A stretch of 64,000 nt of DNA from Gemmobacter sp. 24YEA27 (GTDB taxonomy: Bacteria > Pseudomonadota > Alphaproteobacteria > Rhodobacterales > Rhodobacteraceae). Both the position numbers and the translations under genes were made by a program. The notes below the pieces were generated by a model, which ran no database searches, was not told where the DNA came from, and saw only the letters and a program-made list of their open reading frames with translations. This document shows, piece after piece, positions 8,680 through 25,864 of this stretch (position 1 is its first letter; each line of letters starts with the position of its first letter). The stretch is taken from the NCBI RefSeq assembly GCF_030052995.1, contig NZ_JASJPW010000001.1, forward strand, positions 3,214,001 through 3,278,000. Direction: 5' to 3'.

Positions 8680-8934
8680 ATGATAGAAACAGACTGGGGT
8701 AAACCCCTGCACATCGCCGTCACCCCCCAAGGTGATATTCAGAAATTCACCACAATCGAACAGGCGCGGTACTGGCTTCGCAAGCGTTGGCCGGTCGAAG
8801 ACGACGCGCGGACCACGGCGCTTACCCGGATCGAGGCCGCCATGGCATGCCTCGGGAGCGTTGGCTCCGCCAGGCGGGCCTTCCTTGCGGCAGCCAGTTC
8901 TGCCGGGTTCAGATCAGAAACCCTCGTCGCCTGA
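8680..8934 (+). CDS. DUF982-like small protein
   Basis: The 84-residue protein has the pattern I associate with DUF982: WGKPLHIAV near the start, a G..I..F motif, then EQARYWLRKRWPVEDDAR and a C-terminal Ala-rich helix with ARRAFLAAASSAGF. Function is unknown; such genes are frequent in Rhizobiales and Rhodobacterales, often on plasmids or islands. The ATG at 8680 has only a weak AGCAGG next to it, so expression is uncertain. A strong terminator follows. Confidence 0.7.
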   Translation: MIETDWGKPLHIAVTPQGDIQKFTTIEQARYWLRKRWPVEDDARTTALTRIEAAMACLGSVGSARRAFLAAASSAGFRSETLVA

Positions 8935-8956
8935 GGTTTGAAACGAGAGGTCAGAG

Positions 8957-8988
8957 CCGCCCCTGAACGCAGGGGGCGGTTTTTTTTC
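8957..8988 (+). terminator. Rho-independent terminator
   Basis: Stem CCGCCCCTG (8957-8965) pairs with CAGGGGGCGG (one bulged G) and is followed by eight T. It lies 23 bases after the DUF982-like gene. Confidence 0.88.
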
Positions 8989-9473
8989 GTTTGGGTGCCC
9001 CGCAGACCACGTGATCTCCGGAAATAATGCGCTTAAATCCGGATCAAATTGGGTTCGCTAAGTGATCTGAGAGAGACTGAAGCGCCCGTAGCCGGTGCCT
9101 GGTTGATGGCGACCTGACAGAGAGTCTCACGGAAATCCCGGTATCCTTGGGCGGGCGGGCAGTCATTACCCGCTATCCCAGGCCCGGCTGCGTCCGGCGC
9201 TGATCCCAAAAGTGCCCACTGGATCAGGCCGGGCTCCAATATCGCATGATCGGCGTGACCGAGGACGACATCGCCATGGGTTATGTCGGTAGCCGGGACT
9301 ACCGGCGTGCCCTGCCGTGGCCACCGATGGAGGCCAGTATTGGGCGAGGCCTCAGCCCGGCAGGATCGCCGCGCCGAAGGGCCCACAGGGAAAATAAACC
9401 GGACCTGAAAACCTGACCAAAGATGCTCTGCGGACAGAAGAGCCAGGCTGGTTTTCGCAGCTGAATGGATTGA
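8989..9473. other. Intergenic, nothing recognised
   Basis: About 485 bases without a convincing gene on either strand. Open frames across 9033-9386 and 9299-9592 lack family character and ribosome sites. The stretch may be eroded island DNA. Confidence 0.45.
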
Positions 9474-9848
9474 TCAGGCGGCAGCAGCGGCCTTGCGCTT
9501 CGCATAGCGGAGATCGCGCTCTGACTTGCGCGTTGCTTCATCGGCAACAACACGGGCAATACGCTCATCCAGATTAGCTTTCCGAAGCACAACCTCGCTC
9601 ACCTCAGCGGCGCGCTTTGCGGCCTCTGAAGCGGCGGCCTCATCGGCAAGCCTCTGTTGTTCTTCGAGCTTTGTACGATCGCGCTGCTCGCGGCGCTGCT
9701 CGCGAGCCTCCGCAACAGAGACACGTTCCGCCAGTCTGGCGGCCTTTTCCGGAGCGGCGGCGATTTGCGCGGCCCGAAATGCCTCAAGTGTCGCAGCTTT
9801 GGCAGATGCTGCATTTCCGCGACGGTCAGAGAACTCTTTATTTCGCAT
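9474..9848 (-). CDS. DUF6481-like coiled-coil protein
   Basis: The 124-residue, Ala/Arg/Glu-rich protein is almost entirely helical. It starts MRNKEFSDRRGNAASAKAAT, continues with EKAARLAERVSVAEAREQRR, and ends in RDLRYAKRKAAAAA. This matches what I recall of DUF6481 proteins, found near cold-shock genes in alphaproteobacteria. No signal or membrane segment is present. Its role is unknown, but the basic, rod-like composition suggests nucleic-acid or ribosome association. It is followed on the same strand by nothing obvious and is preceded by another small charged gene. Confidence 0.75.
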   Translation of the reverse strand: MRNKEFSDRRGNAASAKAATLEAFRAAQIAAAPEKAARLAERVSVAEAREQRREQRDRTKLEEQQRLADEAAASEAAKRAAEVSEVVLRKANLDERIARVVADEATRKSERDLRYAKRKAAAAA

Positions 9849-12745: not shown

Positions 12746-14083
12746 TCAATAGATATCCCGGCGCAGACGGCGCTCTGTCATCAGGCGCGCGGTCTCGTCC
12801 TTGCCCAGCACCTCTTCCAGCGCCTGCTGCACATCTGTGGCCATCCCCTCGCGCCGGCCACAGATCCAGATACCGCCACCGGCCGCGACATGCGCCCTTA
12901 CCGCCGCCGCCGAATCGCGCAGGATATGCTGCACGTAGCGCGGCCCTCCCTCCCCGCGCGAGAAGCTGCGGTCAAAACGCGCAAGCCCGCCACTGGCCAC
13001 GAGACCGGACAGTTCCTCTGTGAAAACAGCGTCATGGTCCGGGCTGCGCTCGCCATGGATCAGCCAGACCGGGCCGCTTTCCTTCAGGGCCGCGCGGTGG
13101 CGCAGATGCGCCAGCAGGCCCGCCAGACCCGAGCCATTGCCGATCAGCAGCATAGGCATCGTGTCATCCCCGGCATGAAAACCGGGATTGGCGCGGATCG
13201 ACAGGTCAATGGCACCGCCCTCGCCCAGCTGCCGGCAGAGCCAGTGCGAACCGAGACCGGGACGGCCCTCGCGGGAAATCACCTCGCGCAGAATCAGTTC
13301 AGCGCGTCCGGAGCCCTGCAGCGAGGCCAGCGAATAGTCGCGTCTGACCGGTCCGTTTTGGGTGGGGATGCTGATTTCGGCGATATCTCCGGCCTGCCAG
13401 TCCGGCAGGGGGCCTTCGGGATCCAGCACCAGATGCCAGAGCGGGCCGCCCGGGCTGCCGGGGTTCAGATGGCGCCGCGCCGCCAGACGCCAGCGCGCGG
13501 GTGCGGTGGCCGGGGCCGGCGCTCCGGTGCGCGTGGGCTCCCCCATCCTTGCGCGCCAGGTGGCAAGCGCGGTCGGATGGTCGCGGTCAACCTCGGTCAG
13601 CGGGAAACGGGGTGTAGCACCGCAGGCCCGCAGCCATTGATCCAGCCGATGCGCAAAACCGCAAAAGCGCGGATAGTGGCGGTCGCCCAGCGCGAGCATC
13701 GCATAGCTGAGCCCACCAAGCTCCGGGTGCAAGGTCATCACGCGCGCAAGGAAACCCGTGGCATTGTCGGGCGCGTCGCCATCGCCGGTGGTGCTGATGT
13801 AGAATTGCGCCTGCGCCGTATTGACGAGATCCGCTGCCCCGATCTGGTCCAGCGACAAAAGGCGCGCGCCGGGAGACTGCGCGGCGGCGGCGCGCGCCAG
13901 CGCCTCGGAACTGCCACTCTGGCTGGCATAGCCGATCAGAAGGCCGCCCGGCCCGGTTGCCGCCGCTGGCCCCGCCCGCCCCGCTCGTTGCGCGCGGATC
14001 AGGGTCCGGACTGTGAGCCCGGACCAGGCGGCACCGGTCAGCGCCGCCATCGTCCAGTGCAGCGGATCAGCGCTGAGGATCAT
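12746..14083 (-). CDS. CysJ-like membrane-anchored flavoprotein reductase
   Basis: The 445-residue protein is a diflavin reductase of the sulfite reductase flavoprotein/cytochrome P450 reductase type, passing electrons from NADPH through FAD to FMN. An N-terminal hydrophobic segment (about residues 8-30) should anchor it in the inner membrane. A flavodoxin domain follows (GYASQSGSSEALA near 50, STTGDGDAPDNATGF, ALGDRHYPRFCGFA), then the FAD/NADPH part with RDYSLAS, GLGSHWLC, IGNGSGLAG and the C-terminal aromatic in RRLRRDIY. It overlaps the end of apbE by 17 bases and is the last gene of the receptor-PepSY-ApbE unit. It is therefore the likely electron entry point for that unit rather than part of sulfate assimilation. 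Confidence 0.85.
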   Translation of the reverse strand: MILSADPLHWTMAALTGAAWSGLTVRTLIRAQRAGRAGPAAATGPGGLLIGYASQSGSSEALARAAAAQSPGARLLSLDQIGAADLVNTAQAQFYISTTGDGDAPDNATGFLARVMTLHPELGGLSYAMLALGDRHYPRFCGFAHRLDQWLRACGATPRFPLTEVDRDHPTALATWRARMGEPTRTGAPAPATAPARWRLAARRHLNPGSPGGPLWHLVLDPEGPLPDWQAGDIAEISIPTQNGPVRRDYSLASLQGSGRAELILREVISREGRPGLGSHWLCRQLGEGGAIDLSIRANPGFHAGDDTMPMLLIGNGSGLAGLLAHLRHRAALKESGPVWLIHGERSPDHDAVFTEELSGLVASGGLARFDRSFSRGEGGPRYVQHILRDSAAAVRAHVAAGGGIWICGRREGMATDVQQALEEVLGKDETARLMTERRLRRDIY

Positions 14084-15103
14084 CGTCGAGCATCTCCTGC
14101 AAGGCGGGGGAAACCTCGGTCACGGCACCTTCCGGCCCGCGCCGGATCATCACGGTGGCAACCCCGGAGATGCGCGCAAATGCCATGCCCCGCGCCGCGC
14201 CCATGACCAGAATCGCCGTCGCCAGGGCATCGGCCTGCATCACCGTTGGCGCCAGCACCGAGACCGAAGCGAGGTCATTTTCCACCGGCCAGCCGGTTGC
14301 AGGGTCGATCGTATGGGCATAGCGGCGCCCGCCATGCTGAAAGCCACGCCGGTAATCGCCTGAGCTTGCCAGCCCCCAGCCGTTCAGCGCGATCACCGGC
14401 GGGCGCTGGCCGTTACGGAGCCCCCCGGCGGCGATTCGATCCCGACCCACCAGGGCCGCATATCGGGCCTGAGGCCACGACCGTAGAATTCCCCGCCAAT
14501 TTCAATCAGATGCGAGCCGATCCCGGCCTCCGTCAGGCGCGCGCTGACCAGATCGACGGCATGGCCCTTGGCACTGCCGCTGAAATCGAAGCGTAGTCCG
14601 GGTGGGAAATGAAGCCGGGTGCCCTCCAGCCGCAGCCGCGCATGGCCGCTGAGTTCGCGCGCCTGCGCGATCTCTTGCGGCTGTGGCAGCGGAATATGAG
14701 CGGGACGCGGCCCCGGCGGGCCAAAGCCCCAGAGATCGACCAGCGCGCCCAGCGTCGGATCAGACGCACCTCCGGTCTCAGACGCCAGCTGCAAAAGCGG
14801 CGCGAGCAGTGCCAGAAAGTCTTCAGACAGCTCCGCCTTCCCTGCCCCGTTGCGATGGAGGCGCGAGACCTCGCTTTCCTGGGCCCAGGGGCTGAAGAGC
14901 GCGATCACCCGCGCGCATTCCGTCTCGACCAGGTGCTGCAGCCCGGGGCCCGCGCCGGGCGGCGCCCAGGCGATCAGCGACCAGTTTGTGCCCATGGTCT
15001 CGCCCGCAAGACGGGTCTCGACCCAGCCGGGCGGCGGCGGCAGAACCGGCCCCCGGGCCACCAGAGGCGGCAGGATAACGCGGTTGCGCAACAGGGTTTG
15101 CAT
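14067..15103 (-). CDS. apbE: FAD:protein FMN transferase ApbE (one-base frameshift)
   Basis: ApbE attaches FMN covalently to Thr/Ser of flavinylation motifs in exported proteins. Family motifs run in order through both frames: GETMGTNWSL, TLGALVDLWGFG, FDFSGSAKGHAVD, LIEIGGEFYGRG, then in the other frame SSGDYRRG, YAHTIDPATGWPVEN and ADALATAILVMG. The frames overlap at a run of six C (14421-14426). One extra base joins PWWVGIESPPGG to LRNGQRPPVI and gives 1038 bases (345 residues), so a miscalled homopolymer is more likely than a dead gene. No clear signal peptide or lipobox is visible at the N-terminus, which is unusual for a family usually active outside the cytoplasm. It lies 12 bases after the PepSY gene. 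Confidence 0.88.
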
Positions 15104-15115
15104 CGCGGACCGGCC

Positions 15116-15751
15116 CTAATGGATGAACAAAAGCGCGATGATCAGCGGCAGGGCAAAACTTGCCCAGCCGAGCGGCCAGGTGGCCGGGCGCGATTTCGCA
15201 TGCATCCACATCAGCGCAAAGCCGGTGAGGGTGAAGATGACGCAGGCCAGCGCCAGCAGGTCGATAAACCAGGACCAGACCGGCCCGGCATTGCGGCCTT
15301 TGTGCAGATCATTGAGCCAGGCCAGCCAGCCCCCATCGGTCAGCCGGTAGGTGACATCGCCACTGGCGCGGTCGATGGCCAGCCAGGCGTCGCCGCCGGG
15401 GCGCGGCAAGGCGATATAGACCTCATCGGCATTGGTCTCGGTCGGGCGATGGTCAAGCGTCACGCGGAACTCGCCGGCAGCCCAGGCGGCGACAGAAGCA
15501 GGCACCGGGGTCTCGCCCTCTTCCGGCATGGTACTCATCGCGGCCAGAAGGTCAGGCGGCAGGCTCGAGTGCTGCTCGACCGTCTCGGGGCGCGTGGCGA
15601 AGAGGCCGGCATTGTTGAGCGTGAAGCCGGTGACCGCGAACAGGAACATCCCCGCAAGGCTGATCGCTGCGGAAACCCAGTGCCACAAACGGAACTGGCG
15701 CAGCCAGAAGCTGCGCCCCGAAGCTGTCGCCAGCAGATTGTCTGCCTGCAT
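15116..15751 (-). CDS. PepSY-associated membrane protein
   Basis: The 211-residue protein has a first membrane helix at about 22-46 (LWHWVSAAISLAGMFLFAVT), a periplasmic PepSY-like domain (about 50-150), the family signature LHKGRNAGPVWSWFIDL, and two C-terminal helices with GFALMWMHAKSRPATWPLGW. Proteins of this kind work as inner-membrane reductases, for example in reductive iron release from siderophores (FpvG type). His residues in the helices (HW near 24, LH near 155, MH near 188) could bind heme. It sits between the DUF2271 gene and apbE with 14- and 12-base gaps, so it is probably co-transcribed. Confidence 0.86.
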   Translation of the reverse strand: MQADNLLATASGRSFWLRQFRLWHWVSAAISLAGMFLFAVTGFTLNNAGLFATRPETVEQHSSLPPDLLAAMSTMPEEGETPVPASVAAWAAGEFRVTLDHRPTETNADEVYIALPRPGGDAWLAIDRASGDVTYRLTDGGWLAWLNDLHKGRNAGPVWSWFIDLLALACVIFTLTGFALMWMHAKSRPATWPLGWASFALPLIIALLFIH

Positions 15752-15765
15752 AAGCTGCCCTTTCC

Positions 15766-16317
15766 TCAGGGTTTCGCGGTCACTTTCAACCGGGTGATCT
15801 CACGTTCGCCGGTCACCTCGGCGCTGTTTTCGGCGCCGCCCCAGCTGAAGGGCGCGCGCAGGGTTTCCCGCCCGCCATCCTCGCGCGAGACTTCGACGGC
15901 GAGCACATAGTCGCCGGCACTCAGCCCGGCGAGCGCGGCATTGGCGGGGGCAACCGCAACTTTATGGGTGCCTGGGCCACGGGTCGGCCCGCTAAGACCA
16001 TCGGCCGGAAGATCAAGCTTTTCCCCCTCGGCCCGCCACCAGCTGCGCAGATCGCGCAGGAAGCCGCGCCCGAGATTGTCGCGCAGCCTCGTGTCATACC
16101 AGACCGCCACGGTGCCACGGATCTCTTTCGAGCCCGGCTCTTCGATCCAGGCCGCGAGATAGGGGCGGTATGCGGGGCTGGCCTCGGGCTGCGGCAGCGT
16201 CACCTCGAATTCCAGCCCGGCGGCCAGAGCCGGGCCGCTCACCAGCGCCAGCGTCGCGGCAACGGCCAGGCGCGCGGCCGGCATCGGGCGGGCATTGTCA
16301 TCTGTCATCATCAGCAC
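15766..16317 (-). CDS. DUF2271 periplasmic protein, likely ApbE substrate
   Basis: The 183-residue product has a Sec-type leader (ARLAVAATLALVSGPALAA, cut near residue 33) and a DUF2271 body with YLAAWIEEPGSKEIRGTVAV and LRSWWRAEGE. Residues 106-112 read DGLSGPT. This fits the DxxSGxT pattern of ApbE flavinylation sites, with Pro where Ala or Ser is usual, making Thr112 the candidate FMN acceptor. The start may be the GTG at 16317 or one of the following ATG codons; no strong ribosome site separates them. It lies directly upstream of PepSY and ApbE, which supports a covalent-flavin electron carrier role in the periplasm. Confidence 0.82.
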   Translation of the reverse strand: MLMMTDDNARPMPAARLAVAATLALVSGPALAAGLEFEVTLPQPEASPAYRPYLAAWIEEPGSKEIRGTVAVWYDTRLRDNLGRGFLRDLRSWWRAEGEKLDLPADGLSGPTRGPGTHKVAVAPANAALAGLSAGDYVLAVEVSREDGGRETLRAPFSWGGAENSAEVTGEREITRLKVTAKP

Positions 16318-16412
16318 CAGTCATCGTCAGCACCCGGGGGCAAAAGCGGCATAAGTGCCTCGCGGCGGGCGGGAAGCCTTCACCCGCCGCGAGGCCAGGG
16401 ACGGAGCTGCGA

Positions 16413-17038
16413 TCAGTTGGCAGCGCCGTCCTTTTTCTCGTCTTTCTTAGCGGCCTGATCATTGCCGTCATCCTCGCGGACAGGCGCCGGATCGGCGGCC
16501 GAGACGAAGCCATCGCCATCGGTGTCATTGCGGGCAAAGGTCTTGCGGGCAGACTCGAGATCTTCTTCCAGCGACAGGAAGCCGTCCCGGTCGCGGTCGA
16601 GCAGCGCGAACCGCACAGCGGCCTGTTTCAGGCTGGCCTCAAAACGCTCGCCGCTCGGATCGCGGCCCTGATCTGCATATTGCTGGCGCAGGCGGCCCTC
16701 GAACTCAGCGACATATTCCGCCTCATTGAGCCTGCCATCGCCATCCTTATCGGCCCCCGGAACCGCTCGGTCCGCACCTCGATCAGCTCGTCAAGCGAGA
16801 CCTTGCCGTCGCCATTCTTGTCGTAAGAGGCGATAAAGGCCGCCTGGCTGTGGCCGCCGGCAATGCCCGGCTTCGGCGAGGCGTCGCCCGGATTGTCGGT
16901 CGCAGAACCGACAGTGGCGTCGGCCTGGGCCGGTTTGGCCTCTTCGCTCTGGGCGAAAGCGGCGCCGGAAAGGGCTGCGATCAGTGCGAGCCCCAGAACG
17001 GGGCTGAGGCTCAGGGTGGTTTTGCTGCGGTCGGCCAT
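16413..17038 (-). CDS. Secreted EF-hand protein (one-base frameshift)
   Basis: The N-terminal frame has a signal peptide (VLGLALIAALSGAAFA, cut near residue 29) and the first EF loop DKNGDGKVSLDE. The C-terminal frame holds DRDRDGFLSLEE and DTDGDGFVSAAD and ends in a Lys/Asp-rich tail. Between them, one added base in the C run at 16754-16758 restores another loop (DKDGDGRLNEAE) and gives 627 bases (208 residues). So four calcium loops are expected. The protein should be periplasmic. Its place between the TonB receptor and DUF2271 genes suggests a calcium- or metal-binding accessory role, which is unproven. Confidence 0.83.
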
Positions 17039-17129
17039 GGTGGGACTCCGTTCCTCTGGCTGTGGTCTGGCCGGGGTCCCGGCCGGGAAAGAGCGGGCCG
17101 GCCATCAAATGACGGCCGGCCCGGATGGA

Positions 17130-19132
17130 TCAGAAGGTCTTGATGATACCTACCTTGAAGTTGCGGCCCGGGCCGTTGCGGGTGGCCAGCGCCTGCATGT
17201 AATCGCGGTCGAAGAGGTTCTCGACGCCGAAGCGGATTTCGGTGCCTTCAAGCACGCCGTCCTGCGGACGGTAAGTTGCGCGCAGGTTGTGAACGGCAAA
17301 GCCCGGACGGATCACCGATTCGTCGTAACGGTCATAGGCGACCATTTCCCAGCTCAGATCGAGTTCGCGGTCCCAGCGCTTCCCGGCGACGACACGCAGC
17401 GAATTCGGCGGTGTCTGCGCATAGTTGGAGCGGTTCACAAGCTGGATGGTCTTTGACTCGAAGTTCACAATGCTGGTGCTGAGTTCGCCGTAATAGCCAC
17501 TTTCCATGCTATAGGCGGCCTCAAGCTCGAACCCGGTGCCCGCGATCCAGGCGGTGCTGGGCTCAGAGGTCGCGTTCCAGACATTGGTGTCGTAGATATT
17601 CCCTTTGATGCTGAAGGCATCCCCCGCCGAGAAGAGGTCGGCGGTACGCCAGGACGCCCCAAGTTCAATGGTGCGCGACTGCTCGTTGGTGGTCATGTAA
17701 TTGGCGCGCGTACCGCCGGCCCAGGGCTGGTTCTGATTCTCGAAGTCATCAAGGATCGGCAGACCCTCGGTATAGGCCAGGCTGCCGAACACCGCCGCGC
17801 CATTGGCGAATTCATAGCGCATATCAACGCCGCCCATCAGCGCGTCATTGTCAAAGTTAGTGACCGGGATCCGGGTCTGCGGATAATCTTTATAGGTGAT
17901 ATCCTGGGTCTCATACCGCATCGCGGGCGTGATGGTCAGGCCGTTGCCGAAATCGAATTTGTTGATCAGGAAGAAGGCTGTGCGGTCATCGGTGCCACCC
18001 GGAGCCGAACTGGCGGTCTTGCGCTCTTTCCGGATGAATTCGACACCGGCGCGCAGTTCGTTTTCGATGCTGCCGAAGGTAAAGCGCGCGGTGTTTTTCA
18101 CCGTGAGCTTGGTCGTCTCATACCGATGATCGGCATTCCTGAGCCCATCGGTGGGAACATAGGGCACCGAGGTGCTGTCGATCTGCTGATCGGCATAGGA
18201 CAGGATCACCCGCAGGTCGACCAGGTCATTGTCGAGCGGATTCCACCCATAGGTCAGTACCGCGTTGCGGCTTTCAACATCGCGGTCGACATTGCCAAAT
18301 GGATTGCCCCCGATCGCGTCATAGGGCACGTCGCGCTCGGCCATGGTGGTATTTGCCAGCGAGATGCTGACAAACTGGTCGCGTTCCTGGCCGAAGGTGA
18401 ACTTGCCCTTAAGACCCCATGACGGTGTTTTGAAGCCTTCGGCACCGAGGTCGGCACCCTTGCCATCGACCTGTTCGCCCAGGCGGCGCCAGACATAATT
18501 GGCCACGAATTCAGCGTTTTCCGAAGGCTGCCATGCCAGGATGGTCGATGAGGTGATGCCATCGCCATTCGTGTTGAAACTCAGCCCCTGGCGGAGCTTG
18601 TAGCCGATCTCGCCGCCGGTGAAATCCGAGGCATCCTTGGTTTCCAGCTGCACAATGCCGCCAACGACACCCGAGCCATATTCAAAGCTGCCGATGGTGC
18701 CGCGCATCACCGAAACGCTTTTAAACAGCTCCGGATCGGTGAAAAGCTGCGTGCCGATCCGGTATAGCTCTTCCGAACCCTGAGTCGCCCCGTCAATCGT
18801 GATCATCACCTTCTGGTTGGTGCCATATGTATTGCCGGCGCCAAAGCCGCGAATATTGATGCCGCCGCCAAGCGGCGTCGCGCCGTTGATCAGCGTGACC
18901 CCGGCACCGAGGAGATCAGCTCCGCGATGGTCGAGGCCTGGCGGTCATCCATCTCTTCCTGATCGATGGTGGTCACCGCAACGCCGGTATGGGTGGCCAC
19001 GTCACGTTTGGTGTCCAGGATGACGGTGCCGAGAGCCTCGGGCTCCGCTGTCGTCTGGGCGAGTGCCGCCACAGGGATAAGAAGCGCGCAACTGCTCAAG
19101 AGAGCCGCGCGCAATGAATTGCGTCCAGTCAT
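17130..19132 (-). CDS. TonB-dependent outer-membrane receptor (one-base frameshift)
   Basis: The protein is a gated outer-membrane channel for iron complexes, heme or similar ligands. The N-terminal frame (ATG at 19132, GAGGCGG upstream) has a signal peptide ending AALAQ and a plug start (VAVTTIDQEEMDDRQAS). The second frame carries the plug (GGGINIRGFGAGN, VMITIDGATQGSEELYRIG) and the beta-barrel, ending in the C-terminal aromatic of VGIIKTF. The frames meet at a C4 run (18899-18902); one added base gives 2004 bases (667 residues). It heads the unit that runs to the flavoprotein reductase. The ligand cannot be read from sequence; a heme/hemoglobin-type or siderophore receptor fits. Confidence 0.87.
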
Positions 19133-19624
19133 TACCGCCTCGCTTCGGGTCAGAATTTTGGGAGAGCGCTGGCGGTCTGATGCTGGCGGATGTGCCTGTT
19201 TCTGTCCTGATGCCTTGCACACTGAGTCTGCCGGCTGATCATGGGCACGGCGCATAACTGCTTAATCCTGGTGTAACTGTCAAGATTTGCAATCGAGCTG
19301 CCGGAACGTCGCGTTGCACTGGTGTGACATCCGGGTAACTCTGCCCCCTCGCCGCTGCCGTAAACGGCCTCAGGCGGGCCTTGGCATGTGCCTGGCGCCG
19401 GGCCGGGCCGTATGCCGGGCGGGGCCAGGCAGCGACAGGGGCGGCCAGCCGCAATGCCACCCCAGCGCGGCGGATGACCGGCCGCAAAGTCATTGCAGCT
19501 TGACATCCCCCCTCTGCTCGCGGTCTTTCGCGCATGGTATTCCGGTCCCCCGCCGTCGCGCCATGCGCCGCACCTGCCAGGTTCCAGCCGGTCCCTCTCG
19601 GTCAATCTGAACAGGAGTCATGTG
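19133..19624. promoter_or_regulatory. Divergent promoter region, TonB unit and YncE
   Basis: About 490 bases separate two divergent genes. A minus-strand TTGACA (19283-19278) faces the receptor gene, and a plus-strand TTGACA (19500-19505) faces the YncE-like gene; neither has a good -10 element. I looked for Fur, Irr or iron-rhodo boxes and could not support one. Short repeats of GGCCGGGCCG type occur near 19396-19406. Confidence 0.4.
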
Positions 19625-21052
19625 ATGGGTTTCCCTTTTCTGACAAACGGTTATCGTAAATCTGTCTTCGGGCTTACGCTTGCGGCCCTCACGCTGCCCG
19701 GCGCGGTTTTCGCCGAAAACAGCTTCCCCGCCCCGGTGGAATTCGAAGGTCGGTTCCGGGTCGTCCCCGCTGAACCCGGCAAGCCCGTCCTTCCCGGCAG
19801 CAGCGTCACCATAGAAGGCTCGGGCCTGAAACCGGGTCAGACGCTCGTGCTGCAACGCGGCGCTACGGTCCTGAGCAGCGATGCCCTGACCGCCGATGAC
19901 AAGGGCGCAGTCAGCTTTACCTTCACCCTGCCCGCAGATGCCGCAACCGGCCTGCATCCGGTGATTGCAATCATGGACCAGCCCTCCTCGACCTCGCTTT
20001 TCGATGTGAAAGTGTCAAAGGATGTGCCGCTTTCGGGCGCGGACGGGTTCAGCGTGACCCGCGTGAAATCTGCCCCCGGCCTCTATCAGTCGGTCTATAG
20101 CGCGAAATCGAATGCGCTCTTTGTGGCCGCCGCGAATTTCCGGCCGCCGGCTGCTGCACTGCTGAAGCTGAACCCGGAAACGCTGGACGTGGTCGCCGAA
20201 GTCACGCCGCCGCCCCTGCCCGAAGACCAGCGCCGCGCGCCGGCGGAAGGTCAGCCCGATAATGGCCCGCAGCCGGTGGCGCTGTTCGGCCTGGCGGTCG
20301 ATGACGAGAAAGGCACGATCTGGGGCACCAACACCTTTGACAATTCGGTCGCGGTCTATGCCCAGGACGATCTGGCGCTGATCAAACAATTCCCGCCGGG
20401 CGAGGTCTATCATGCCCGCGACGTCAAGGTGGATGCAAAGCGCGGCCGCGCCTATGTCTCGGCCTCGGCCACCAATGGCGTGCATGTGTTCGACACAGAA
20501 ACCCTTGAGAAGGTTGCGGTTATTGAGATCACCTCTGGCATTCGCGGCGGGGAATTCTCGCTGATGAGCATCGCGGTCGATCCGGACGGCAATCGCCTTT
20601 TCGCGGTCAGCCGCAAATCGAACGAGCTCGCGGAGATCGACCTGACCACGAATACCGTGACCCGGATTCTGCCGCTGCCGGGCGCGAAAAATGCCTCCGG
20701 CGTCGATTTCGACGCGGCGACCGGCACGATCTATGTCGCCTCGCAAGACAGCGACAACCTGCTGATCGTCGATCCGGCCTCGGGAGAGGTGAAGCATGAT
20801 GTCACCACCGGCGCCGGCGCGCTGAATGTGGTGTTTGACCCGGTGCAAAAGCTCGCTTTCGTGTCGAACCGCGGGGCTGGCACGGTGACGGTGGTGTCGC
20901 CCGAGGGCGAGGTCGTCGCCAATCTCGATGGCGGCAGCTATCCGAACCATGTGGCGCGTGACGGGAAAGGCAATATCTTTGCCGCCAACAAATCACTTGG
21001 CGCCGAGGATGCGACCGCCGACCATATCACCCTGATCCATAAGGCGAACTGA
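19625..21052 (+). CDS. YncE-like periplasmic beta-propeller protein
   Basis: The product (475 residues from the ATG at 19625; a GTG lies one codon earlier) has a signal peptide (SVFGLTLAALTLPGAVFA) and an Ig-like N-terminal stretch (VTIEGSGLKPGQTLVLQRG). A seven-bladed propeller follows, with repeated blades such as GRAYVSASATNGVHVFDTET, NRLFAVSRKSNELAEIDLTT and GTIYVASQDSDNLLIVDP. AGGAG precedes the start. In E. coli, YncE is iron-repressed and linked to a TonB receptor, and here the gene is divergent from a receptor operon, so a shared role in metal uptake is a reasonable inference. A strong terminator follows. Confidence 0.85.
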   Translation: MGFPFLTNGYRKSVFGLTLAALTLPGAVFAENSFPAPVEFEGRFRVVPAEPGKPVLPGSSVTIEGSGLKPGQTLVLQRGATVLSSDALTADDKGAVSFTFTLPADAATGLHPVIAIMDQPSSTSLFDVKVSKDVPLSGADGFSVTRVKSAPGLYQSVYSAKSNALFVAAANFRPPAAALLKLNPETLDVVAEVTPPPLPEDQRRAPAEGQPDNGPQPVALFGLAVDDEKGTIWGTNTFDNSVAVYAQDDLALIKQFPPGEVYHARDVKVDAKRGRAYVSASATNGVHVFDTETLEKVAVIEITSGIRGGEFSLMSIAVDPDGNRLFAVSRKSNELAEIDLTTNTVTRILPLPGAKNASGVDFDAATGTIYVASQDSDNLLIVDPASGEVKHDVTTGAGALNVVFDPVQKLAFVSNRGAGTVTVVSPEGEVVANLDGGSYPNHVARDGKGNIFAANKSLGAEDATADHITLIHKAN

Positions 21053-24012: not shown

Positions 24013-24519
24013 ATGCCACTCTTTTTTATCCGGCTCGTGCTGATCATCGAAAAGATCAACACCGTCATCGGCCGCCTCGCGATGTATCTGATCTTCGCGC
24101 TGGCCGGTGTCCTGCTGTACTCGGTGATCGCAAAGGCGTTTTTCCGCCCCGCGCTCTGGACCCAGGAAATGGCCCAGTTCACTATGGTCGGCTATTTCGT
24201 CCTTGGCGGTGCCTATTCGCTGATCCTTGGCGCCAATGTGCGGATGGACCTGCTTTACGGCCGCTGGAGCGTGAAAACCCAGGCGCTGGTCGATTGCGTC
24301 ACCGTTTTCTGCATGATCTTCTTCCTCGTCATCGTCCTGTGGGGCGGGATTGAAAGCACGATCTACGCATTCGAATTCGGCGAGCGGTCCCGCACTGTCT
24401 GGCGGCCCTATATGGCGCCGATCAAGATTGTGATCTGCTTCGGCGTCTTCCTGATGATCCTGCAATCCATCGCCTTTCTCATCCGCGACATTGCGACTTT
24501 GCGCGGAGTGAAAATCTGA
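24013..24519 (+). CDS. TRAP transporter small permease (DctQ)
   Basis: The 168-residue protein has four membrane helices (about 18-40, 50-75, 95-118 and 135-158) and the DctQ-typical region WTQEMAQFTMVGYFVLGGAY. It should form the permease with the large subunit that starts at its stop codon (TGATG overlap). The ATG at 24013 is taken because the helix pattern starts here; the longer upstream frame is not protein-like. It transports with the DctP protein encoded downstream, driven by a sodium or proton gradient. Confidence 0.9.
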   Translation: MPLFFIRLVLIIEKINTVIGRLAMYLIFALAGVLLYSVIAKAFFRPALWTQEMAQFTMVGYFVLGGAYSLILGANVRMDLLYGRWSVKTQALVDCVTVFCMIFFLVIVLWGGIESTIYAFEFGERSRTVWRPYMAPIKIVICFGVFLMILQSIAFLIRDIATLRGVKI

Positions 24520-25864
24520 TGCCCTACGAATATATCGCCATTGTCATGTTCATGGGCATGATGGCCATGCTCATGACCGGCCAGCGGGTCTTTGCCGGCA
24601 TCGGTTTTGTCGCCGTGGTCGCCACCATCGCGCTTTGGGGGGATCGGGGGGTTATGACATCGCCTTCACCACCACCATCAAGCTGATGAACTGGTATCCG
24701 ATGCTCACCCTGCCGATGTTCGTCTGGATGGGCTATGTGATGTCCGAGGCGCGCCTCGCCGATGATCTTTACAAGATGTTCCATGTCTGGTTCGGGCCGA
24801 TCCCCGGCGGTCTGGCGATTGGCACGATCCTCCTGATGGTGCTGATCTCTGCCATGAACGGGCTGTCGGTCGCGGGCCTTGCCATCGGCGCCACCATCGC
24901 CCTGCCCGAGCTTCTGAAGCGCGGCTATGACAAGCGGATGGTCACCGGCATCATCCAGGGCGGCTCATCCCTGGGCATTCTGGTGCCGCCTTCGATCGTC
25001 CTGGTGCTTTATTCGATGATCGCGCGCCAGCCGGTCGGGCAAATCTGGCTTGCAGGCGTCTTCCCGGGCCTGCTGATGGCCGGTTTCTTCCTGCTTTATG
25101 TGGTGATCCGCTGCGGCATCAACCCAAAGCTTGGCCCGCCGCTGAGCCAGGAGGAGCGCGATTCCATCACCTGGGGCGAGAAGATCCGGCTGCTGCGCGC
25201 CGGAATCCTGCCTGTCGTGATCTTTGCCTCGATGATGGGCCCCTTCGTGATGGGCTATGTCAGCCTGGTCGAAGCCTCGGTGGTCGGGGCGATGATTGCC
25301 ACCCTGGTCGCCCTGTTCAAAGGACGTATCACAAAAAAGGTCTGGGAGAACTGCCTCGTCAACACGCTGGGCGTCACCTGCATGTTCATGTGGATCCTGC
25401 TCGCCGCAATGGCCTTTGGGGCAGTTTTCGACGGGCTGGGTGCCGTGCGGGCCATCGAGGGCTTCTTCCTCGATGATCTGGGCCTTGGCCCCTGGGGCAT
25501 CGTGATCCTGATGCAGGTCTCGTTCCTGCTCATGGGCATGTTCCTTGACGACACCGCCATGCTGGTGATTGTGGCGCCGCTCTATATTCCGCTGGTCGCG
25601 AAACTGGATCTCGGCATGCCGCCACAGGATGTGCTGATCTGGTACGGGGTGCTTTACACCATCACCTGTCAGGTGGCCTATATCACGCCGCCCTTCGGCT
25701 ATAACCTGTTCCTGATGCGCGCCATGGCGCCGGACCATGTTTCACTCTCTGATATTTACCGCTCCATCGTACCGATTGTCGCGATTATGATCCTGACTTT
25801 GGCCGTGATCATGACCTTCCCCGAGATCGCACTTTGGCTGCCACATCAGGTTTATGGACAATAG
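24519..25864 (+). CDS. TRAP transporter large permease (DctM), one-base frameshift
   Basis: The protein has about 12 membrane helices. It shows DctM signatures such as GYVMSEARLADDLYKMFHVW, IIQGGSSLGILVPPSIVLVL and FLDDTAMLVIVAPLYIPL. The first 40 or so codons (MPYEYIAIVMFMGMMAM onward) are in a different frame from the rest. One base added to the G6 run at 24646-24651 reads LWGDRGGYDIAFTTTIKLM and gives 1347 bases (448 residues), the usual size. It overlaps dctQ by TGATG. I treat the break as a likely base-calling error because all else is intact. Confidence 0.88.

Follow-up and report, generated by a model that had tools for sequence, protein, structure and literature searches.

PepSY-like flavinylation systems are gene clusters in which a PF03929 or PF16357 protein is encoded together with ApbE, FMN-bind, DUF2271 or DUF3570 proteins. 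The survey describing them (Meheust 2021, eLife; PMC8238504) counts 3220 such clusters, 2833 of them with DUF2271, 1500 with DUF4198 and 231 with a TonB receptor. It also reports a DUF2271 protein that is flavinylated by its ApbE and loses the modification when the motif threonine is replaced. Here, a related cluster is described in a 64,000-nucleotide stretch of Gemmobacter sp. 24YEA27 (contig NZ_JASJPW010000001.1, positions 3,214,001 to 3,278,000; hereafter the window), whose host genome comprises 5.08 Mb in 12 contigs. It is likely that this cluster is a receptor-linked PepSY-like flavinylation system passing electrons to an imported metal, most likely Fe(III).

The closest relative system is CC_3059-3063 of Caulobacter crescentus (CCNA_03155-03159). 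According to one study, its genes rise 12- to 44-fold on iron limitation, lose repression when fur is mutated and have a promoter bound by Fur (PMC3751524). The same study describes a Fur-repressed CC_2193/CC_2194 region encoding an EF-hand and a DUF4198 protein which, by locus number, lies near a TonB receptor. Insertions in CCNA_03155-03159 cost fitness in ethylenediaminetetraacetic acid (PMC11870441), and a receptor and PepSY pair, HiuA/HiuB, is reported for ferrioxamine use (PMC13001220).

Predicted electron path

The minus-strand order is TonB receptor, EF-hand protein, DUF2271, PepSY_TM_like_2, ApbE and diflavin reductase, with a YncE-like propeller divergent from them (Table 1). This gene content, order, strand and set of coordinates had been proposed from the letters alone (hereafter the original prediction) and proved correct, with domains over curated cut-offs; the frameshifts that split the receptor, EF-hand and ApbE genes had been overlooked, as had the missing export signal of ApbE and the absence of a convincing FeoB. 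Gaps of 91, 95, 14 and 12 bp follow one another in cluster order, and apbE overlaps the reductase gene by 17 bp. Because the gaps are small and the final pair overlaps, at least the last four genes appear to be transcribed together.

Judged by sequence, the core formed by the PepSY protein, DUF2271, ApbE and diflavin reductase (the cassette) is the known PepSY-like flavinylation system, in that PF16357, PF10029 and PF02424 matches lie adjacent to one another. In the predicted path, NADPH would reduce, on the cytosolic side, the flavin adenine dinucleotide (FAD) and flavin mononucleotide (FMN) of a CysJ-like reductase anchored in the membrane. Electrons would pass to one or more putative histidine-ligated hemes of the three-helix PepSY protein and, in the presumed outward direction, across the membrane to covalent FMN on the motif threonine of a periplasmic DUF2271 protein, onto which ApbE would load the flavin. 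Either DUF2271 or the PepSY protein itself may then reduce the metal complex that the neighbouring TonB receptor imports, with Fe(III) the most likely candidate, and so release the metal. The path first proposed for this cluster finds support in outline, with both the metal and its ligand putative.

The PepSY protein has 211 residues. His24 and His150 are invariant in 21 of 21 aligned sequences and His211 nearly so; this alignment and that of DUF2271 hold cassette loci only, and the conservation seen in them is not independent of that selection. The structural model places three long helices round one PepSY-like domain, with a mean predicted local distance difference test (pLDDT) of 83.1, and its top Foldseek row is FoxB (7abw_A, E 4.4e-3, probability 0.90).

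The reductase combines a weakly hydrophobic N-terminus and a flavodoxin domain with RDYS, the FAD motif, GNGSG, the NADP motif, a CysJ-like S-R..YxQ and a C-terminal RRDIY. Electron flow between reductase and PepSY protein is supported because PepSY_TM and flavodoxin domains share one open frame in all four scanned family loci that hold DUF2271 (L006, L013, L023 and L026; L denotes loci and G genomes throughout), a fusion that bears out the pairing originally proposed. CysJ chains are the closest solved relatives of the reductase. Its assignment to CysJ itself was rejected, as the 90% identical protein from locus L033 scores 156.9 bits on TIGR01931 against a cut-off of 668.15.

The DUF2271 protein carries the predicted FMN site at residues 106-112, as first noted, provided that residues are counted from the GTG start; the codon of Thr112 lies at 15984-15982. 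Across the aligned proteins the motif reads DG[LVI][ST][GS][AP]T, with the threonine invariant in 22 of 22. The window's SGPT corresponds to the [S/T]GA[S/T] flavinylation motif, with the alanine replaced by proline. By hydropathy and eye, the N-terminus is hydrophobic and signal-like and lacks twin arginines, consistent with the definition of PepSY-like flavinylation systems, in which one or more of the target genes encode a signal peptide or lipidation site. The model (mean pLDDT 75.5, about 62 round the motif) sets the motif between a helix at 83-95 and a strand at 115-121.

The ApbE catalytic motifs GETMGT, DFSGSAKG, IGGE, HTIDPATG and ADALAT are all present, spread over two frames, and the protein is intact in L033, L064, L034 and L069. 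Eight genomes holding the cluster or its variant were searched for ApbE, FMN_bind and FeoB_N. In six of them the cluster ApbE is the sole ApbE found, the window genome having the split copy. FMN_bind proteins appear in two (G394 and G397), which are those with an ApbE outside the cluster, and were not found in the other six, window genome included. With a single ApbE and no FMN_bind in these six, DUF2271 is the obvious client. The proposed pairing of ApbE with DUF2271 is thus supported by the published flavinylation, by the invariant threonine and by the single ApbE and missing FMN_bind of these six genomes.

Table 1. Features of the cluster and the adjoining propeller gene (positions in the window; scores with curated cut-offs)
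Feature	Position	Strand	Remarks
TonB-dependent receptor	17130..19255	-	barrel 78.3 bits (cut-off 27); frameshift near 18900
Secreted EF-hand protein	16413..17038	-	four canonical EF loops; frameshift near 16755
DUF2271 (PF10029) protein	15766..16317	-	114 bits (cut-off 27.3); signal-like N-terminus; predicted FMN site DGLSGPT
PepSY_TM_like_2 (PF16357) membrane protein	15116..15751	-	233.2 bits (cut-off 27)
ApbE (PF02424) FAD:protein FMN transferase	14067..15103	-	two pieces, 142.8 + 93.7 bits (cut-off 25.6); frameshift near 14426
Flavodoxin-type diflavin reductase	12746..14083	-	77.8 bits (cut-off 25)
YncE-like propeller, secreted	19625..21052	+	divergent from cluster

Conservation across relatives

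The nearest relative locus, L033 of Paracoccus sp. IB05, is 94% identical to the window in DNA over 8.7 kb. L034, from Pseudogemmobacter faecipullorum (G395, counted in the same genus), is a more distant ortholog, and the genus of the window is accordingly taken as Pseudogemmobacter. The six genes recur in unchanged order in L034 and in L069, at 42-75% protein identity, a recurrence beyond chance; L069 belongs to another genus, its proteins are 42-59% identical to those of L033, and its reductase runs off the contig. Altogether, the order occurs in five of the seven distinct loci of the family (the window, L033, L064, L034 and L069), which span two genera. L066 begins inside DUF2271 at a contig end. 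In a different family, L081 (G646) encodes PepSY, DUF2271, ApbE, reductase, receptor, TonB, DUF4198 and EF-hand proteins.

In L067 (G394, 8702-9550), the seventh family locus, PepSY is truncated near window residue 174 and, by eye, phage-tail-like sequence follows. Neither apbE nor the reductase gene was found in the stretch fetched behind this break. G394 has its only ApbE on a different contig, some 2.6 kb from an FMN_bind gene.

Individual components differ in their spread, all counts including the window. The PepSY protein is present in six of 13 genomes of the genus, and DUF2271 in 53 of 248 sampled genomes of the family. Close relatives of the receptor occur in five of 385 genomes of the class and those of the EF-hand protein in three. 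The gene set is kept together in relatives, though in few genomes, and the original prediction thus survives the refuting condition that it had set on joint conservation.

Searching genome contigs with the window reductase as seed returned 24 loci, of which 21 hold relatives of both PepSY and DUF2271 and 19 have ApbE as well. A contig end truncates L044, and L040 and L055, with open frames of 786 and 841 amino acids, may be fused cassette forms. An open reading frame stands between DUF2271 and ApbE in 16 of 19 loci examined, and DUF4198 was found in 15 of 15 scanned. Annotation of Acidovorax sp. DW039 lists PepSY, DUF2271, DUF4198, FAD:protein FMN transferase and 'sulfite reductase subunit alpha'. 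A separate search of the family gave a flavodoxin-like match beside DUF2271 in 24 of 29 loci, the window left out. The dedicated reductase, which the original prediction considered unusual, is therefore a regular partner, present with PepSY and DUF2271 in 21 of the 24 loci and named in the Caulobacter operon. On the receptor side, a receptor profile built from five loci gives weak scores (15.9-34.1 bits) in six of 22 other reductase loci (L037, L038, L040, L050, L052 and L055), and an EF-hand profile finds no convincing match in these 22, the score in L056 being 17.0 bits at about 5 kb distance.

Candidate metals and rival explanations

Several observations weigh against an electron path to imported iron. 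The PepSY protein is rare, occurring in two of 394 family genomes (window included), and three cluster genes are frameshifted in the sequence as it stands. FoxB is a weak fold match (TM-score 0.24) and was absent from the VIA-align list. DUF2271 is the only client family found in the six single-ApbE genomes, in a search that did not extend to DUF3570 or NqrB/RnfD. An export signal is missing from ApbE in 22 of 25 loci, the window among them, which is a poor fit with periplasmic flavin loading. The FeoB_N search of the eight genomes yielded no convincing FeoB for the window genome or for six relatives from its family, and the receptor promoter of the window matches none of four simple iron-box patterns, a weak test with exact strings.

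The frameshifts split the receptor gene, the EF-hand gene and apbE, three of the six cluster genes, into two frames each through the change of a single base. One 8,731-column alignment with L033 has single bases missing at six places in the window, three of them coding, and at none in L033. Paracoccus sp. IB05 (L033) and L034 each have all three genes as uninterrupted frames. In G404 (L064) this holds for the EF-hand gene and for apbE, and the sole stop in the receptor stretch precedes the likely start, and in L069 the matched stretches of all three are open. For the split pieces (receptor, ApbE and the N-terminal part of the EF-hand protein, the misframed C-terminal part being left aside), the ratio of non-synonymous to synonymous substitution rates (dN/dS) is 0.09-0.35, as compared with 0.05-0.28 for intact neighbours. 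All three coding losses sit in or beside G runs. Because the relatives are intact, the dN/dS values lie near the intact range and the losses fall at G runs, the frameshifts are probably consensus errors rather than decay.

Elsewhere, single-base gaps, given for the window and the relative in turn, number one and zero over 10,587 aligned bases (L088), four and two over 8,505 bases (L089), nine and ten against G404 over 19,135 neighbouring bases (L087), and six and four over 12,415 bases that include the cluster (L064). On these counts, of which those against G404 over the neighbouring bases are balanced, base loss is not clearly in excess across the window; the losses in the cluster hit coding sequence. 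Relative to both close relatives, a single base is also missing at about window position 24653 (24519-24700), close to the beginning of a gene whose product resembles the large subunit of a tripartite ATP-independent periplasmic (TRAP) transporter, and this is perhaps another consensus error. Were the frameshifts real, the cluster would be decaying in this strain, with ApbE, the receptor and the EF-hand protein lost. Such a history would fit the occurrence of three coding frameshifts in some 4.5 kb, where the 10,587 neighbouring bases aligned with the strain of L033 (L088) show a single one-base gap. The near-intact dN/dS range of the split pieces argues the other way, as do the position of the losses at G runs and the additional loss at the TRAP-like gene outside the cluster, both of which consensus errors could produce, and decay appears rather unlikely overall.

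Export signals of ApbE were assessed with a hydropathy script of our own, and by eye in L033, L047, L064 and L081 after the motif pattern failed. They are present in the ApbE of L041, L042 and L045 (three of 25), and the window ApbE has neither the N-terminal export signal nor the lipobox of a secreted ApbE. An ApbE of this kind beside a DUF2271 protein with a signal-like N-terminus makes loading before export a live possibility. In its fuller form, flavin would be attached to DUF2271 in the cytosol ahead of Sec export, and the EF-hand protein would replace DUF4198 and take the reduced metal; this combination is put forward tentatively and is a minority expectation. The ApbE frames of L036, L037 and L053 have no ATG, GTG or TTG within 70 codons (or the whole frame) before the first conserved motif, and that of L035 has two start-type codons ahead of it. 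In these four, from Brevundimonas and a Caulobacterales metagenome-assembled genome, the stretch NRVL[IV]P recurs at the N-terminus.

Iron is nevertheless the likely metal, as the Caulobacter relative, according to the accounts cited above, is regulated by Fur and iron and sensitive to a chelator; this supports an iron-related purpose. All eight genomes exceed the 27-bit cut-off of FeoB_N. The best matches in the window genome and six relatives reach 47.5-55.5 bits in frames of 342-385 amino acids, which are read as generic small GTPases, and the match in G646 reaches 179.8 bits in 668 amino acids. TGA-N9-TCA, among the iron-box patterns tried, occurred only in the receptor promoter of L034.

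The chain could instead serve copper, with the receptor importing copper chelates and the PepSY protein reducing Cu(II) for respiratory oxidases, as for CrtA/CrpH of Bordetella. The CrtA/CrpH arrangement is a receptor gene with a PepSY_TM gene behind it, and the absence of a convincing FeoB in the window genome and of any iron box found would suit a metal other than iron. The nearest complete cassette relatives are, however, reported as Fur- and iron-regulated in Caulobacter. CrpH has two large periplasmic domains, unlike the 211-residue PF16357 type of the window, and reportedly acts independently of the copper complex that CrtA imports. A copper role is accordingly held to be improbable.

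The receptor plug domain is split over two pieces and falls below the cut-off in each. A stop in L064 ahead of about 19132 makes this position (MTGRNSLR..) the probable translation start. Among solved structures, the L033 ortholog is closest to ShuA-type heme receptors (E 8.6e-17), which raises the alternative that the receptor imports heme and that the chain reduces heme iron or aids heme use. Relatives of the window receptor in L083 (47% identical) and L085 (31%) adjoin genes resembling those for a heme ATP-binding cassette (ABC) transporter and HutX; in L085 both the ATPase and the receptor exceed family cut-offs, the former that for heme ABC transporters and the latter that of the heme-receptor family TIGR01785. 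The L033 ortholog, at 218.8 bits, stays under this family's cut-off of 316.85. F-x-A-P and N-P-x-L motifs mark heme receptors and were not found in the receptors of L033, L034, L067 or L081; L069 has NPLL, and the L034 receptor has only two histidines in 672 residues. Nor does the operon contain a heme ABC transporter. Taken together, heme import is given only a small chance.

The propeller goes with the receptor and not with the redox cassette, because a second receptor and YncE-like propeller pair (34% and 53% identical) recurs on contig C6 of the same genome (L086, 8161-11739), a stretch in which the cassette proteins have no match. The propeller gene is divergent in the window, L033, L064 and L067 and convergent behind the cluster in L034; it was not found in the stretches of L066 (cut short), L069 and L081.

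The EF-hand protein has four loops of the form D-x-[DN]-x-D-G and is predicted to bind calcium. Its first piece in the window falls below the EF-hand profile cut-off, and the intact L033 copy lies above it. No DUF4198 was found anywhere in the window genome by whole-genome search. The EF-hand protein may occupy the place of DUF4198, as a periplasmic metal-binding or structural partner on the receptor side. An EF-hand gene beside DUF4198 near a receptor is also found in L082 and in Sphingobium sp. RAC03. The original prediction regarded the EF-hand protein as making the cluster unusual; it does so to a lesser degree, as the Caulobacter Fur regulon and Sphingobium hold a similar EF-hand/DUF4198 pair.

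EF-hand loops could point to a lanthanide locus, in which the protein would be lanmodulin-like and the receptor would import lanthanide complexes. The L033 ortholog does match the lanmodulin model NF053806 (E 1.2e-9), and the lanthanome as described includes PepSY domains, EF-hands and TonB receptors alike. The score of 38.4 bits is nonetheless far under the cut-off of 135, which places the protein outside the lanmodulin family, and proline at position 2 of the EF loop, the lanmodulin signature, is present in none of the four loops. Lanthanides need no reduction, and LanPepSY is described as a 19-kDa periplasmic protein with two PepSY domains, as opposed to the membrane protein of the window. 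A lanthanide function is highly improbable, and iron is retained as the most likely substrate of the receptor-linked chain.

Significance and comparison with known systems

Few complete chains are available for asking how reduced flavin beyond the inner membrane serves metal uptake. The cluster places a donor, a membrane carrier, a flavin carrier, the flavin-attaching enzyme and a receptor side by side, and the enzyme has one obvious client, so the whole path is testable with five or six proteins. An ApbE lacking an export signal raises the question of where the flavin is attached; if cytosolic loading is true, a covalent flavoprotein electron carrier would be made inside and then sent out. 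Should iron be the metal, how released Fe(II) enters the cell becomes a further question, given that no convincing FeoB was found.

In literature searches, PepSY, sulfite reductase, TonB-dependent and ApbE were not found together, nor were EF-hand, DUF4198 and TonB, although the spelling 'EF hand' (for example in PMC3751524) escapes the latter search. EF-hand, PepSY and TonB-dependent do co-occur in three papers, the lanthanome paper among them. The core is in print; what differs is the merging of the receptor and EF-hand protein with the cassette in the absence of DUF4198, an arrangement that these searches did not return.

HiuABC of Caulobacter and FoxB of Pseudomonas (PMC13001220; 7abw) resemble the cluster in joining a TonB receptor to a PepSY inner-membrane reductase. 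The accessible text on them names no flavinylated protein, ApbE or dedicated reductase (PMC13001220), and the FoxB chain in 7abw has 360 amino acids, compared with 211 in the window PepSY protein. Fusion clusters of the same family (L006, L013, L023 and L026) contain the same modules near DUF2271 but, unlike the window, in one frame and with a PepSY part of the PF03929 type. The systems of Meheust 2021 share with the window a PF16357, DUF2271 and ApbE cluster with a TonB receptor alongside; compared with their description as far as it is accessible, the window has in addition a stand-alone CysJ-like reductase as well as an EF-hand protein, and is without DUF4198. The likeness is closest to CC_3059-3063 of Caulobacter crescentus, for which the available record lists a COG3295 PepSY-family protein, DUF2271, ApbE and a sulfite-reductase-type flavoprotein. 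That record includes DUF4198 and lists no receptor or EF-hand protein, whereas the window has both and no DUF4198. Caulobacter keeps the two modules apart under one regulator, and the window cluster joins them.

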